Below, piece after piece: positions 13,353-63,890 of a DNA stretch of 64,000 nt; the stretch's first letter is position 1; each line of letters opens with the position of its first letter. The notes below the pieces were generated by a model. That model did not search any database and was not told the DNA's origin. It saw only the letters and a program-made list of their open reading frames with translations. The stretch is from assembly GCF_035083965.1 (NCBI RefSeq), contig NC_089724.1, positions 9,356,910 to 9,420,909 on the forward strand. The letters run 5' to 3'. Both the position numbers and the translations under genes were made by a program. This DNA is from Branchiostoma lanceolatum (lineage: Eukaryota > Chordata > Leptocardii > Amphioxiformes > Branchiostomatidae).

Positions 13353-16300
13353 ATGGAGTTGACTAGGTGCATCGGGATCTTGGTCCTCGGGTTATCACTA
13401 CTGACATATGTCCATGCACCCGGTAGGTCTTTTCTCAGTTTCAGGATAATTGATACTAGCAGTTCAGTCACCCCAAAAAGGAACAAATTGGTATTGAATT
13501 TAGTGACTCTTAACACGTTGTTTGTTTTCATCACGTGTTCGATTGGAAAATGCAACCCCTTTTGACCATCGTGTTATGCCATCTCTAATGTCTATTTGAA
13601 TCGTATAATTTGAGACTTTTTACTTTCTTTGTCAGTGGGGCAACCATTCGACGATTTCCTAAAATTTGATGGGTCTGCAATGACTGGTTGGAACGATGTA
13701 GACTTGTACAACTATACAGAGGAACAGTGTCTGATGGAATGTATCAACCGCAACATGAATGCATCAGCCGGTCGGTACCTCTCAGTCGAGTACTGGCCTA
13801 GCAAAACGCCAACGAAATGTACCCTCGGCCAGGCTTCAAAAGTGCAAAATCCTGAAGCTTTCGGCCACACAACCACGGGTGACGATGTTATATACTATCA
13901 GCTAAGTGAGTCCCCTAGTGTATTTGCGAATCATCTTAATTTGTATTGTGTTAACCTAATGCATATGGGGGATAAACTTGTAAGAGTTCTACTTATCTAT
14001 CAGTTATTTGAAGAGACTTTGACTAAGACCATTTGGCAATTGAAATTTCGCTTGCTGAATTTGTTTCTTAATGCAAGTACACAAACAATAAGATGTAATT
14101 TGCCTAGGATTTCAGCAAAGGGATACAACAATTACATAAATCTGTGGGATAATCAGTTAGTCAATCAATGTTCTCAGAGAACGAACGCCAATGAGTTCGT
14201 CCAATGCAAGTCCTTTATCCATCTGGATTCATGCATTATTTTCTCATTTTGTTTGAAGTCAACTTGTAGTAACAGTTGACCATTGCGCCCACTACAGTTA
14301 TTGATGAGTGTGATGCAACGATAGATCTAGACGAGTGTTCCCATGGCTGTGATGACCTGGAGGATGGGTACAGCTGCACATGTCCATCGGGCTGGGAGTT
14401 GTCACCAGCCAACAATAGGACCTGCATCGGTGAGCAGTGGAGCATTTTTCTAAGAAACAATAGTGGGATTGCCACTTTTAAAGGCTTTCCCCTCATATCT
14501 GATATGTCTCCATAAAATAACGCGTTCAGTTGAAAAAAACAACTCCCAACCCGCACATACATGGGACCCACATACAGGCTGTATAATGTACAACCCATAT
14601 ATATATATAGGAAATCTTTATTGACACGACAAAAGTACAGAGACTTTCGTAAGGTCTTCTACAACTATACATGCAAACAACAAACAATGTATACATAATG
14701 ATTAACCTAAGTACAAGTATATGAATACTTATATATATATATATATATATATATATATGGATCCAGCAGCACAAGAGTTAAGAATCACAAATGATGGTGA
14801 CGTACATCTCCTACTTTCTGATTTAATCATTATGTAACTTGATATGATTTTAAGTGACTGTGCTAGAAATAATCATGGCACTTTCTCGTGAAATGTAAAA
14901 TAAGTGTGATGATTTAAAGTAATATGCACAAAATAATCAAGGAAGAAATGGATACGTAACAATTGTCAATTGGCAACCATGGCGCTATCCGGCGTAAATA
15001 GGGTAGCCACATGTTTGATCGTGACCTGCTTAGATAATTCTGACCCCAGCAATTTTCAGATACACAGATGTCTAGTAAATACAGTATTTGCTATTTTTTT
15101 TCAATTTCAGATGTCGACGAATGTGCTACGAATAACGGCCAGTGCTCCGATACCTGTGAAAATAGCGAGGGTTATTACAACTGCACCTGTCCGCCCAAGC
15201 GAGAGTTATTTACTGATGGGCTGAACTGCCAAAGTACATCTTGCTTTGTTTTCAATACGATTTTTCTAGCTTTTTCTAAATGTTGATTGTCTTAAGAATA
15301 ATTGGAAACATCCGCCGTGTTGTTTTGTAAAGTATATATAACTGACAGGAACTGGCCCTTCACTTGATGCCCTTTTGATGCTTATAAGTCGTTTTGTTTT
15401 GTTTCCTTTTCATATTTTGCCTGGCTTTGGCTTTATTTGGATCAACGTGCACAACTAGCTTGACATTTCTGCTAGCTATCTTTTCTCTGGTCCTACAATG
15501 TGTATAATTTTGAATTGGTGTACAGCTCTGACCTTTAAGTTCAAATAAATTAAACATAATATGTTAATGTAGAGACACAGCATGGAAGGAAAGAACAAAC
15601 AAAGAAGATGTGGCGTGTCCGACCGCCCGATGTTCTAATGCCAGATGTAACTGGTTTAACGTATTTTACCCTTCCAGTACACGGAGGGTGGTCAGACTGG
15701 GGCCCGTGGTCCGACTGTAGCGCAGACTGCGGCATTGGTCGTCAGACGGGCCAGCGGAACTGCAGCAGCCCTGCTCCATGGCCACAGTACGGCGGGAGGG
15801 ACTGCAGGCGGTACGGTACCAGGTCAAAGCTGTGTTACGAAGACTCTGGCTGCACAGGTAGGAACAATCCCTGTTCTCATTTTTGGTTACTCTACACTTA
15901 GTACATGTAACATGACCAATTCTCTGCAATGTCCCTTTGATTGACTGACAACCACTCCTAGGTATATCAGACAGACGTATGTTCTTGTTACACTCTCATG
16001 TGTACATGTCATTGTTTTGCAGGTCCAAACCATAAAACGATAATTGATGTGAGTTGGACTTCCATTATTTTTACCTTTTAGTAACTGACATTCTTCCACA
16101 TGGCATAGTTTGTAAAGTAGCATGTAACTTTATACTACATGATTATCAAAACATGGGACTTAAAGTGCGGGGTGATTTGTGTGCCTTTAAGGCTTCTTTT
16201 CTAATGGATATCCGATTTGACTTTTCTTTTTTCCTTTTGCATTTATACTGTAGGGGCTTTTGGACCCAGGGGAAAGTGACGATGTGACAATCAGCACAAT

Positions 16301-62100: not shown

Positions 62101-63890
62101 GTTTGGGTAATGTAGACGGCTGCAGCCGGTAACGTATGCCGTTGTCTTGCAAAGAAAACGAATCAAACCAACTAGATTAAACACAATTTCACAGAAGCAA
62201 CGCTTCCGTGTTAACGTTGCGTCATGTGATATATCACTAACCATACTATATGATTTGATTTACATTAAAAGTTCATCTTGAAACTCATTATGATTTATAT
62301 TCAATTTTTATACACTTACATCCGAGCAGAGCCACGGAGCAGACCTGAGTGTCGAGCGGATACCTCGCCAATTTGGCCACACAGGTCACTTGAAGAAGAC
62401 GACTGGTATAAGAAAAAAAACAATAATATCAAAAGATTATGATTTTTCATTTATGTTTGTTGACAGAGCAGATAAATCCAACACTATGAACCATTAAATT
62501 CAGTTGATATACCGCTTTTTTCTCCGTTAATTTCTTGAATTACTAAATAATAGCAATAGACTTAGGATCAACCAGAAATATGCATACAGAGTTGAGTTTA
62601 TGAAAAAGAACCCACGTTATCTGAAGAATAACCAGCCCCTCGCGGTTCATCCACATCTTGTTGTCATCGTCTTCTTCGGTGATGGCCCGGCGGACCGTCC
62701 GTCCGAACGCGAGCGGCGGGGACCAGAGCAAGGACGGCGGGACAGGAACCCACCCTGGTGCCAGGCCGAAGAGACGGGGGTCATACCAGCAGAGAACGTA
62801 CTGGACTCTAATGTAAATGTTCTGAAACGATAAAAGTATGTGAAATCAAATATGTAGTTGCATAATGTGTGGCATTCTGTTTCAATGCAACACCTTAAGT
62901 GAATGCTCTTTGCAAATATGTAAAAACGGCCAAATATATGCAATGATATTGATGGTGACTTCCGAGTGATTCAATTTCAAAGGCTTATCACGCTAGCTTG
63001 AAGCTGATTGTTATTTCTATGATGCGAAATCGATGCCAACGTAGGGTAAGGGAAACAAAGTTTACAGCATGTTCTTCCGAATGTGGGCTTATGTTGAGAA
63101 CGTAGACAGTCGATGCGACATCCACTTCACCTGGAATGAAAATCAAGACAAAAAAAAAGTTGCGTACAAATATTTTGACGAAGAAATGATATCGACAGCC
63201 ATAGAAATATATAAAATAGTGGAGTAGAATATGTTCAAGAGTTATCCAACAAAGAAGCATGCAGTCGAATGTTTATGTAACAGTAAGCCACATAGTGAGA
63301 ATTGAAAAAATACAAACCCGTCTCAGTAGGTGCTACAGAAGAGTCATAGTCGAACGGCAGAAACTTTCCATTTTCCCAGTTGTTCTTCCAGATAGGCCAG
63401 GTCATGTTGTTGCTGCTCTCACCGGGATCGAACAAACCCTATGTTATAATAGTTAAGAGACAGTGAAAACAAGGTGTTGGGAAGACACGCCGCATGCATA
63501 TACTAGTAGAATTTAGTTGAAGGGAAAACTCAACAATAATGATTCACGTTGATAATGCAATGGCTTGCAAGTCATAGTCATGATTGTAAAAGACCCCCAA
63601 TCTCTGTAAATTGAATTATACGTAGGTCCGGGCTGTCTCCGTTGTTGATGTCATTTGGCTTTTCACTATACAGAATCAGACAACATGTGATGCATGAAGA
63701 CTGTAGTATTTGTGTGGGTCTTTTCTGAACGGGGTTTACGTCATACGAAAATGAAATTGGCTAAGTTATTGATAGTTACGAGACTCGTAACTATCAATAA
63801 CTTAGCAGAGTATTACAAGTAAACGAACGAAGTAAGTGCAGTATTTCGATTAAAGAACATTCATACTTACCGGTATTGCAGAGTCACTCT
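59109..63890 (-). CDS. Receptor R5: Cys-loop ligand-gated channel, 5' end beyond window
   Basis: Same exon plan as R2-R4 from the micro-exon onward: 63871-63890 (micro-exon, ESDSAIP), 63318-63438, 63066-63130, 62616-62821, 62320-62402 and 61999-62145 (ligand-binding domain; Cys-loop [21 protein letters not shown]), 61465-61620 (eight-Cys), 60446-60669 (M1-M2), 59996-60109 (M3), 59109-59609 (loop with IPRPGL and IPRARL blocks, M4, stop). The visible part is 545 residues without a break. The micro-exon starts in phase 1, so at least one ectodomain module exon, probably TSP1, lies beyond 64000. M2 reads SPRIVLGVMSVLTM: Pro at -1' and Arg at 0'. The intron after 61999-62145 appears to use a GC donor. 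Ligand unknown. Confidence 0.92.
60758..61112. mobile_element. MITE related to 29989-30385
   Basis: Ends read GGCCACAGCAAGTACATTTT and, inverted, GGCCATAGCAAGTAATTGTT, each followed by TATGGATG(A/G)CATC. Lies in the R5 intron between the M1-M2 and eight-Cys exons. Confidence 0.78.
61465..61620 (-). other. R5 eight-cysteine module exon
   Basis: Spacing C-x6-C-x6-C-x7-C-x4-C-x2-C-x6-C-x6-C, with the MTSLSDEC core. Confidence 0.88.
63760..63806. repeat. Perfect 23-base palindrome with 1-base loop
   Basis: 63760-63782 and 63784-63806 are exact reverse complements around A63783, core GTAACTATCAATAACTTAGC. In an R5 intron, near the micro-exon. Confidence 0.92.

Follow-up and report, generated by a model that had tools for sequence, protein, structure and literature searches.

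In a stretch of 64,000 nucleotides from the lancelet Branchiostoma lanceolatum (RefSeq assembly GCF_035083965.1, contig NC_089724.1, positions 9,356,910 to 9,420,909 of the forward strand; hereafter the window), we observed a cluster of Cys-loop channel genes, four of which (R1 to R4) are complete at the N-terminal end, the fifth (R5) being represented by its channel part. We propose that they form a tandem family of anion-type (glycine/GABA/GluCl) pentameric Cys-loop subunits in which exon shuffling remodelled two places, and, as judged from the sequence, we give this explanation as a whole a probability of roughly 0.6. The first place would be the N-terminus, where a signal peptide and phase 1-1 modules typical of secreted proteins would stand before the ligand-binding domain, framed by a micro-exon. 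The second would be loop C of the ligand-binding domain, into which a symmetric exon encoding eight cysteines would have been placed.

To obtain gene models, stop-free stretches throughout the window were compared among themselves, splice sites were picked near the conserved stretches, and the phases were then checked (Table 1). R1 and R2 lie on the plus strand and R3, R4 and R5 on the minus strand, R2 and R3 being convergent with their ends approximately 545 bases apart. A previous reading of this DNA (the sequence-only reading) had described channel exons of 65, 206, 83, 224 and 114 nucleotides recurring in R2 to R5; these lengths are exact in all four genes, and the counterparts in R1 measure 68, 203, 83, 224 and 114 nucleotides. 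Pairwise identity among the five channels ranges from 37 to 77%, i.e. beyond chance. The frame of R3 (856 amino acids) and R4 (837 amino acids) is uninterrupted from the signal peptide to a stop past the fourth transmembrane segment (TM4). At the expected end of exon E of R5 there is no GT donor, and a GC donor is found there (61999).

Using Pfam, Neur_chan_LBD (PF02931) was found above the cut-off in all five proteins and Neur_chan_memb (PF02932) in four of them, with R1 reaching 18.7 bits against 28.1; nearly the whole of the latter profile was matched in R3, R4 and R5. A ligand-binding domain and a pore domain, as recognised by Pfam, are features shared with glycine receptors, GABA-A rho and GluCl, and the canonical 13-residue loop (Cys-x13-Cys, with Pro and Asp) is present in 5/5. 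When the channel of R3 was compared with solved structures, the nearest were glycine receptors (best E 2.1e-30), followed by GABA-A rho, other GABA-A and GluCl chains. The best 60 of the 167 matches are all glycine receptor, GABA-A or GluCl chains or a GLRA1 chimera, so the nearest structures are anion channels.

The residues of the pore and of the binding site were assigned through the alignment of R3 with glycine receptors, relative to which R3 has two additional residues before the second transmembrane segment (M2). According to the part of PMC13335744 considered here, anion selectivity goes with Pro at M2 -2' and Ala at -1', without Glu at -1'. We found G, A, A, A and P at -1' in R1 to R5, that is, Ala in three and Glu in none, together with Arg at 0' and Leu at 9' in all five; the 0' Arg and the lack of a -1' Glu are shared with glycine receptors, GABA-A rho and GluCl. 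However, unlike in those receptors, -2' is Ser and never Pro (0/5). By the rule of PMC13335744, the pore residues lean to anions without being decisive. The intracellular M3-M4 loop, encoded by the last exons of R1 to R5 (e.g. 37650-37117), carries two to three copies of an IPR[P/A/S] motif in 5/5, possibly a cytoplasmic docking motif.

Before the channel, the modules follow each other in the order PAN-EGF-EGF-TSP1 in R1, PAN-EGF-EGF-FA-TSP1 in R2 and kringle-FA-TSP1 in R3 and R4, where FA (Pfam Methyltransf_FA) is encoded by two exons and counted as two. These are the module types that the sequence-only reading had named, and most of them are above the Pfam cut-offs: kringle, FA and TSP_1 in R3 (76.1, 112.7 and 38.1 bits) and in R4 (83.5, 109.1 and 43.7 bits), PAN_1 (22.5 bits, cut-off 21.4), FA (40.2 bits) and TSP_1 (31.7 bits) in R2, TSP_1 and three EGF-type models in R1. 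Two assignments fared less well, since the EGF-type matches of R2 all fall under the cut-offs (e.g. EGF_CA, 26.0 against 27), and the PAN of R1, without any Pfam match, was assigned by its 32% identity to the PAN of R2 across 50 residues. The claim of five mosaic channels stood for the modules of R1 to R4 and for the ligand-binding domain of all five, but R5 displays in the window only its channel exons and a 20-nucleotide micro-exon, anything upstream of which lies beyond the window end. As modelled, the 18 module exons (four in R1, six in R2, four in R3 and four in R4) are all of phase 1-1, with phase-1 introns flanking the modules on both sides as in class 1-1 exon shuffling. A Pfam search of the three minus-strand frames of 43205-44500, 44480-49100 and 56037-58900 for further modules returned only the known kringle; self-comparison of the frames of the window served for the gap in R4 (55456-55801) and for those in R1 and R2.

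The junction between modules and channel is where these genes can be read as one or as two. Since the TSP1 exon ends in phase 1 and channel exon A begins in phase 0 in 5/5 genes, a direct splice between them was ruled out in R1 to R4. A micro-exon running from phase 1 to phase 0 was first spotted by eye in an alignment and then sought by scanning the introns for a start in phase 1 and a length of 2 modulo 3. It is found in all five genes, and in R1 to R4, whose TSP1-to-channel introns are complete, it is the top or the sole phase-fitting candidate. After first-order Markov resampling of these four introns (300 per intron), the observed score was reached 0, 4, 26 and 0 times in R1 to R4, respectively. 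As a control, we scanned 58 other introns of R1 to R5, of which none held a frame-keeping mini-exon (11-32 nucleotides) scoring at least 15, compared to four of the five micro-exons. The base preceding the micro-exon of R5 falls outside the window, and with three of the four possibilities for it the micro-exon is open; the sequence-only reading had ended its array at this same position (63890). Signal-peptide-like start exons ending in phase 1 precede the modules in R1 to R4 (donor scores 7.8, 12.1, 10.0 and 9.9), R1 having a second, weaker candidate (4.3), and between TSP1 and exon A no signal-peptide-like exon ending in phase 0 or phase 1 passed the hydropathy test in these four genes. Because the micro-exon is present in 5/5, the signal peptides stand before the modules with none from TSP1 to the channel, and the order is the same in four paralogues on both strands, the module and channel exons of each gene most likely share one mRNA. 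The sequence-only reading had placed both sets of exons in one gene, and we come to the same view: modules and channel very likely form one protein.

The second remodelled place had escaped the sequence-only reading. Exon F, of phase 1-1 in all five genes, encodes a unit of about 50 residues inside loop C, with eight cysteines invariant in 5/5 and spaced 6, 6, 7, 4-5, 2, 6 and 6, a pattern that suggests two helices tied together; an N-x-T glycosylation sequon directly precedes it in 5/5. Comparison of R3 with a glycine receptor gave a match in two pieces, the first ending at R3 channel residue 194 and the second starting at 247; across this gap the receptor runs from 228 to 228, leaving approximately 52 surplus residues in R3 just ahead of the loop-C tip of the receptor. 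Without exon F, R3 gives one continuous glycine-receptor match (120 bits against 108.7), with a few extra residues remaining at loop C. Exon F is therefore quite likely, on this alignment, an insertion into loop C. Searches of Pfam, NCBIfam and the PDB with exon F returned no significant family. Both halves of exon F locally resemble those of attractin, an Aplysia pheromone, in swapped order; this resemblance is not significant (PF08037, E 0.023 in one of the five; PDB 1t50, E 2.8-3.1), and we do not claim homology.

In known receptors, loop C is the flap that closes over the agonist. We consider that the exon F cassette bears on function at least as much as the N-terminal modules. In the GABA case, the transmitter is bound by an Arg of loop D and a Glu of loop B (PMC13335744, in the part considered). 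In the lancelet genes, unlike in glycine receptors, GABA-A rho and GluCl, we observed neither: the loop-D position reads M, V, T, T and V, and the loop-B position H, L, Y, H and L, in R1 to R5 (Arg 0/5, Glu 0/5). Two positions further along loop B, all five have the aromatic Tyr. Since these canonical GABA- and glycine-binding residues outside loop C are missing as well, a classical amino-acid transmitter appears unlikely as the ligand.

From these features a mechanism can be proposed. Five subunits would assemble into a pore, with the modules on each subunit projecting as an extracellular antenna and the loop-C unit occupying or capping the inter-subunit site. Considering the loop-C unit together with the missing loop-D Arg and loop-B Glu, binding of a small amino acid may have been replaced by recognition of a larger ligand, probably a protein or a glycan, or by a tethered element. 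A large ligand that binds the modules or loop C, or its removal, would then shift loop C and open a probably chloride-conducting pore. Every module exon, like exon F, has a length divisible by three and the same phase at both ends, so that isoforms with fewer modules or with a short loop C could arise by in-frame splicing. Gating of the pore by binding at the modules or loop C is put forward only tentatively. The proposal of the sequence-only reading, a lineage-specific family whose modules may sense matrix, plasma-like or microbial ligands, is likewise a conjecture. The widest form of our proposal is speculative and rather unlikely to hold in full. In it, exon shuffling would have rebuilt both the N-terminal part and the agonist flap of a eukaryotic pentameric channel. 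Multi-module antennae and a disulfide-rich, perhaps helical-hairpin loop C would convert a chloride channel of neurotransmitter type into an ionotropic receptor that responds fast to proteins, matrix or microbes, and isoforms would arise by skipping symmetric exons in frame.

The main rival, which we regard as about equally likely as this sensing mechanism, gives the modules a structural role: as anchors or clustering elements they would fix the channel in matrix or at junctions, or they would control its assembly and traffic, and gating would depend on a small ligand, on protons or on nothing. Kringle, EGF, TSP1 and PAN are common protein-binding modules, which suits such a role, and module composition differs among the paralogues while the channel core is common to all five. 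A purely structural role leaves unexplained, however, both the loop-C cassette and the loss of the loop-D Arg and loop-B Glu.

Another explanation concerns exon F itself, which could be alternative: the main isoform would then bind a small ligand and have a loop C of canonical, short form, with the cassette acting as a regulated switch. The length of exon F (153-162 nucleotides, always a multiple of three), its symmetric phases and the continuous alignment of R3 to glycine receptors once it is removed would all fit. On the other hand, the binding residues outside loop C are changed too, and the cassette cysteines are conserved in all five genes. We hold this arrangement to be the less probable one.

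That each gene is in fact two mis-joined neighbours, a secreted module protein followed by a Cys-loop channel of the ordinary kind that has a promoter and a signal peptide to itself, is improbable. This concern is a published one: the part of Banyai and Patthy (2016; PMC4967905) considered here warns of exactly such lancelet predictions, reports a Lectin_C-fn2 case disproved by expressed sequence tags, and notes for an earlier false fusion that both partners had their own stop and their own signal peptide. A separate channel start was looked for. ATG exons ending in phase 0 are found between TSP1 and exon A in three of the four intervals (2, 3, 0 and 3 in R1 to R4), which leaves some room for it, but none of them is hydrophobic enough to pass as a signal peptide. 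In addition, the micro-exon follows TSP1 after only 165, 462, 244 and 418 nucleotides in R1 to R4, and the polyadenylation hexamer AATAAA occurs in this interval once in R4 and not at all in R1 to R3. Phase arithmetic demands a micro-exon, and one is present in every gene; the common order of the four paralogues adds to what is a strong, though indirect, argument against mis-joining and for the single remodelled gene that we propose.

We then compared the paralogues by the ratio of non-synonymous to synonymous substitutions (dN/dS), calculated by the Nei-Gojobori method without a significance test, as averages over both lineages and with dS saturated for several other pairs. Between R3 and R4, dN/dS is 0.46 overall, with 0.45 for the kringle, 0.34 for FA, 0.47 for the ligand domain, 0.26 for exon F, 0.27 for exons G-H, 0.45 for the last exon and 1.35 for the signal peptide, the latter on 21 codons. 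Between R2 and R5 we obtained 0.20 overall, 0.45 for exon F and 0.17 for exons G-H, and between R3 and R5, 0.15. By segment, these values place exon F and FA under constraint in the R3-R4 pair; in the R2-R5 pair, exon F is less tightly constrained than the pore. The TSP1 is not clearly constrained, its dN/dS of 0.95 between R3 and R4 indicating little constraint.

This TSP1 value is one of several points that weigh against our explanation, as does the missing -2' proline. Splice-site scoring used matrices drawn up from general knowledge, and phase agreement was itself one ground for choosing some weak sites (acceptor of the first FA exon of R3, 2.3; donor of the second FA exon of R2, 1.5). Signal-peptide-like starts are not rare, as a loose criterion gives 26 distinct donors on one strand of the window and 15 on the other; a donor score of at least 7.5 leaves eight such starts in the window, four of which are those of R1 to R4. 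The micro-exon of R3 has the weakest splice signals of the five, and its score of 11.2 was reached by 26/300 resamplings and 4/58 control introns. As it is unconvincing by itself, the micro-exon case is carried by the other four and by the likeness of the R3 micro-exon to that of R4. Finally, R2 has an in-frame stop (36297-36299) before TM4, although a recognisable TM4 continues downstream to 36569, and the best candidate for an intron removing this stop (42 nucleotides, score 1.5) is not credible. The last exon of R1 is open to 22341 without TM4, which is found in another frame at 22344-22538. A plausible candidate intron in R1 (21997-22322, 326 nucleotides, score 13.8) would join TM4, but the stretch that it removes looks coding (dN/dS 0.48 against a partial duplicate of the R1 end). 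R1 and R2 may therefore yield truncated proteins, and each break may reflect an allele, an error of assembly or a genuine truncation.

The partial duplicate contains part of exon H together with exon I, with an open stretch of 156 amino acids and dN/dS of 0.24-0.48 against R1. A decaying cluster, in which some or all copies would be pseudogenes and the architecture would have no function, could draw on the R2 stop, the R1 frame ambiguity, the GC donor of R5 and this duplicate, but is very improbable given that no break is seen in R3 or R4 between the signal peptide and the stop, that dN/dS is low (0.46 for R3-R4, 0.20 for R2-R5 and 0.15 for R3-R5) and that TM4 is recognisable past the breaks in R1 and R2.

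Upstream of the cluster, a 634-codon open stretch with many C2H2-zinc-finger-like motifs (3-1904, by eye) is followed by an organic anion transporter (OATP) gene (5112-10855). Its segment 5112-6083 scored 145 bits with Pfam; a Kazal-like cysteine stretch near 8575 and more transporter-like stretches to 10855 were recognised by eye. A 115-nucleotide repeat, probably a mobile element, occurs three times (10969-11083, 23535-23649 and 31210-31324), two copies being 64% and 87% like the first, and one copy sits between the TSP1 and the micro-exon of R2. Minisatellites and a long AG repeat are found in introns and between genes (27598-27787, 47637-47816, 48414-48630 and 54683-54858). Rfam gave no match in the window at gathering thresholds.

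Table 1. Features of the Cys-loop gene cluster in the window, as modelled; minus-strand exons are written in the direction of reading, and phases are those at the start and end of the exon.
Gene	Feature	Positions	Strand	Length (nucleotides)	Phases	Score
R1	Gene	13353-22341	+
R1	Signal peptide	13353-13422	+
R1	PAN	13636-13905	+
R1	EGF	14298-14429	+
R1	EGF	15111-15233	+
R1	TSP1	15678-15857	+
R1	Micro-exon	16023-16048	+	26	1 to 0	17.3
R1	Channel exons A-I	16254-22341	+
R1	Exon F	18882-19037	+	156	1-1
R1 end	Partial duplicate	24700-25564	+
R2	Gene	27087-36299	+
R2	Signal peptide	27087-27153	+
R2	PAN	28011-28265	+
R2	EGF	28642-28770	+
R2	EGF	28948-29076	+
R2	FA, first exon	29332-29553	+
R2	FA, second exon	29786-29977	+
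R2	TSP1	30975-31151	+
R2	Micro-exon	31614-31633	+	20	1 to 0	15.1
R2	Channel exons A-I	31854-36299	+
R2	Exon F	34893-35054	+	162	1-1
R3	Gene	45199-37117	-
R3	Signal peptide	45199-45136	-
R3	Kringle	44480-44232	-
R3	FA, first exon	43204-42971	-
R3	FA, second exon	42830-42645	-
R3	TSP1	42225-42049	-
R3	Micro-exon	41804-41785	-	20	1 to 0	11.2
R3	Channel exons A-I	41442-37117	-
R3	Exon F	39168-39016	-	153	1-1
R4	Gene	57631-49291	-
R4	Signal peptide	57631-57565	-
R4	Kringle	56037-55801	-
R4	FA, first exon	55456-55214	-
R4	FA, second exon	55059-54871	-
R4	TSP1	54601-54425	-
R4	Micro-exon	54006-53990	-	17	1 to 0	19.0
R4	Channel exons A-I	53595-49291	-
R4	Exon F	51356-51204	-	153	1-1
R5	Gene, partial	63890-59109	-
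R5	Micro-exon	63890-63871	-	20	1 to 0	18.2
R5	Channel exons A-I	63438-59109	-
R5	Exon F	61626-61465	-	162	1-1

The literature on Cys-loop receptors is cited here for the portions considered, except where the main text is named. Tasneem et al. (2004; PMC549065) described the then-known members as stereotyped, with more diversity among those of bacteria. Jaiteh et al. (2016; PMC4795631) discarded the terminal parts in their analysis and stated that links with other domains were known solely at the genome level. According to Lycksell et al. (2022; PMC9897478), N-terminal domains of the bacterial channels are "not found in eukaryotic relatives". The extra folded domains ahead of the ligand-binding domain, carried by all four genes complete at that end (R1 to R4), resemble in this respect DeCLIC and other bacterial pentameric ligand-gated ion channels with N-terminal domains, and set them apart from glycine receptors, GABA-A rho and GluCl, as does the eight-cysteine cassette of loop C. 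In DeCLIC, however, the addition consists of two beta-rich lobes; the modules of R1 to R4 match Pfam models of kringle, FA, TSP1, PAN and EGF type.

On the lancelet side, Huang et al. (2014; PMC4284660) reported extreme 1-1 phase exon shuffling, a pattern that the module exons (18/18) and the loop-C exons (5/5) follow as modelled; the words "neurotransmitter", "ligand-gated" and "kringle" are absent from the main text of that paper. Banyai and Patthy (2016; PMC4967905) listed a protein of B. belcheri, 269420_PRF0, whose architecture includes Neur_chan_memb and is apparently confined to Branchiostoma, and considered that unusual lancelet architectures may be prediction errors, leaving their reality open. 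We liken this protein to R1 to R5 by its pore domain only, as a novel lancelet architecture that includes one. Among the open-licence matches listed, the titles and abstract openings described no Cys-loop receptor with such modules, the one mention being inside PMC4967905. The statement of the sequence-only reading that no named family has this architecture therefore fits with PMC9897478, but needs to be qualified by the unusual lancelet Neur_chan_memb protein already in print.

Overall, animal Cys-loop receptors have been described as stereotyped; additional N-terminal domains have been reported for bacterial members and said to be lacking in eukaryotes (PMC549065 and PMC9897478, in the portions considered). 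If the lancelet genes read as modelled, animals too have grafted adhesion-type modules onto Cys-loop channels, and a new element onto the agonist flap. The cluster also bears on the dispute, in print in PMC4967905, over whether odd lancelet architectures, one of them with this pore domain, are real or annotation errors. If read as modelled, these genes would make ionotropic sensing of macromolecules possible and would serve as a natural experiment on the gating of the pore by loop C.

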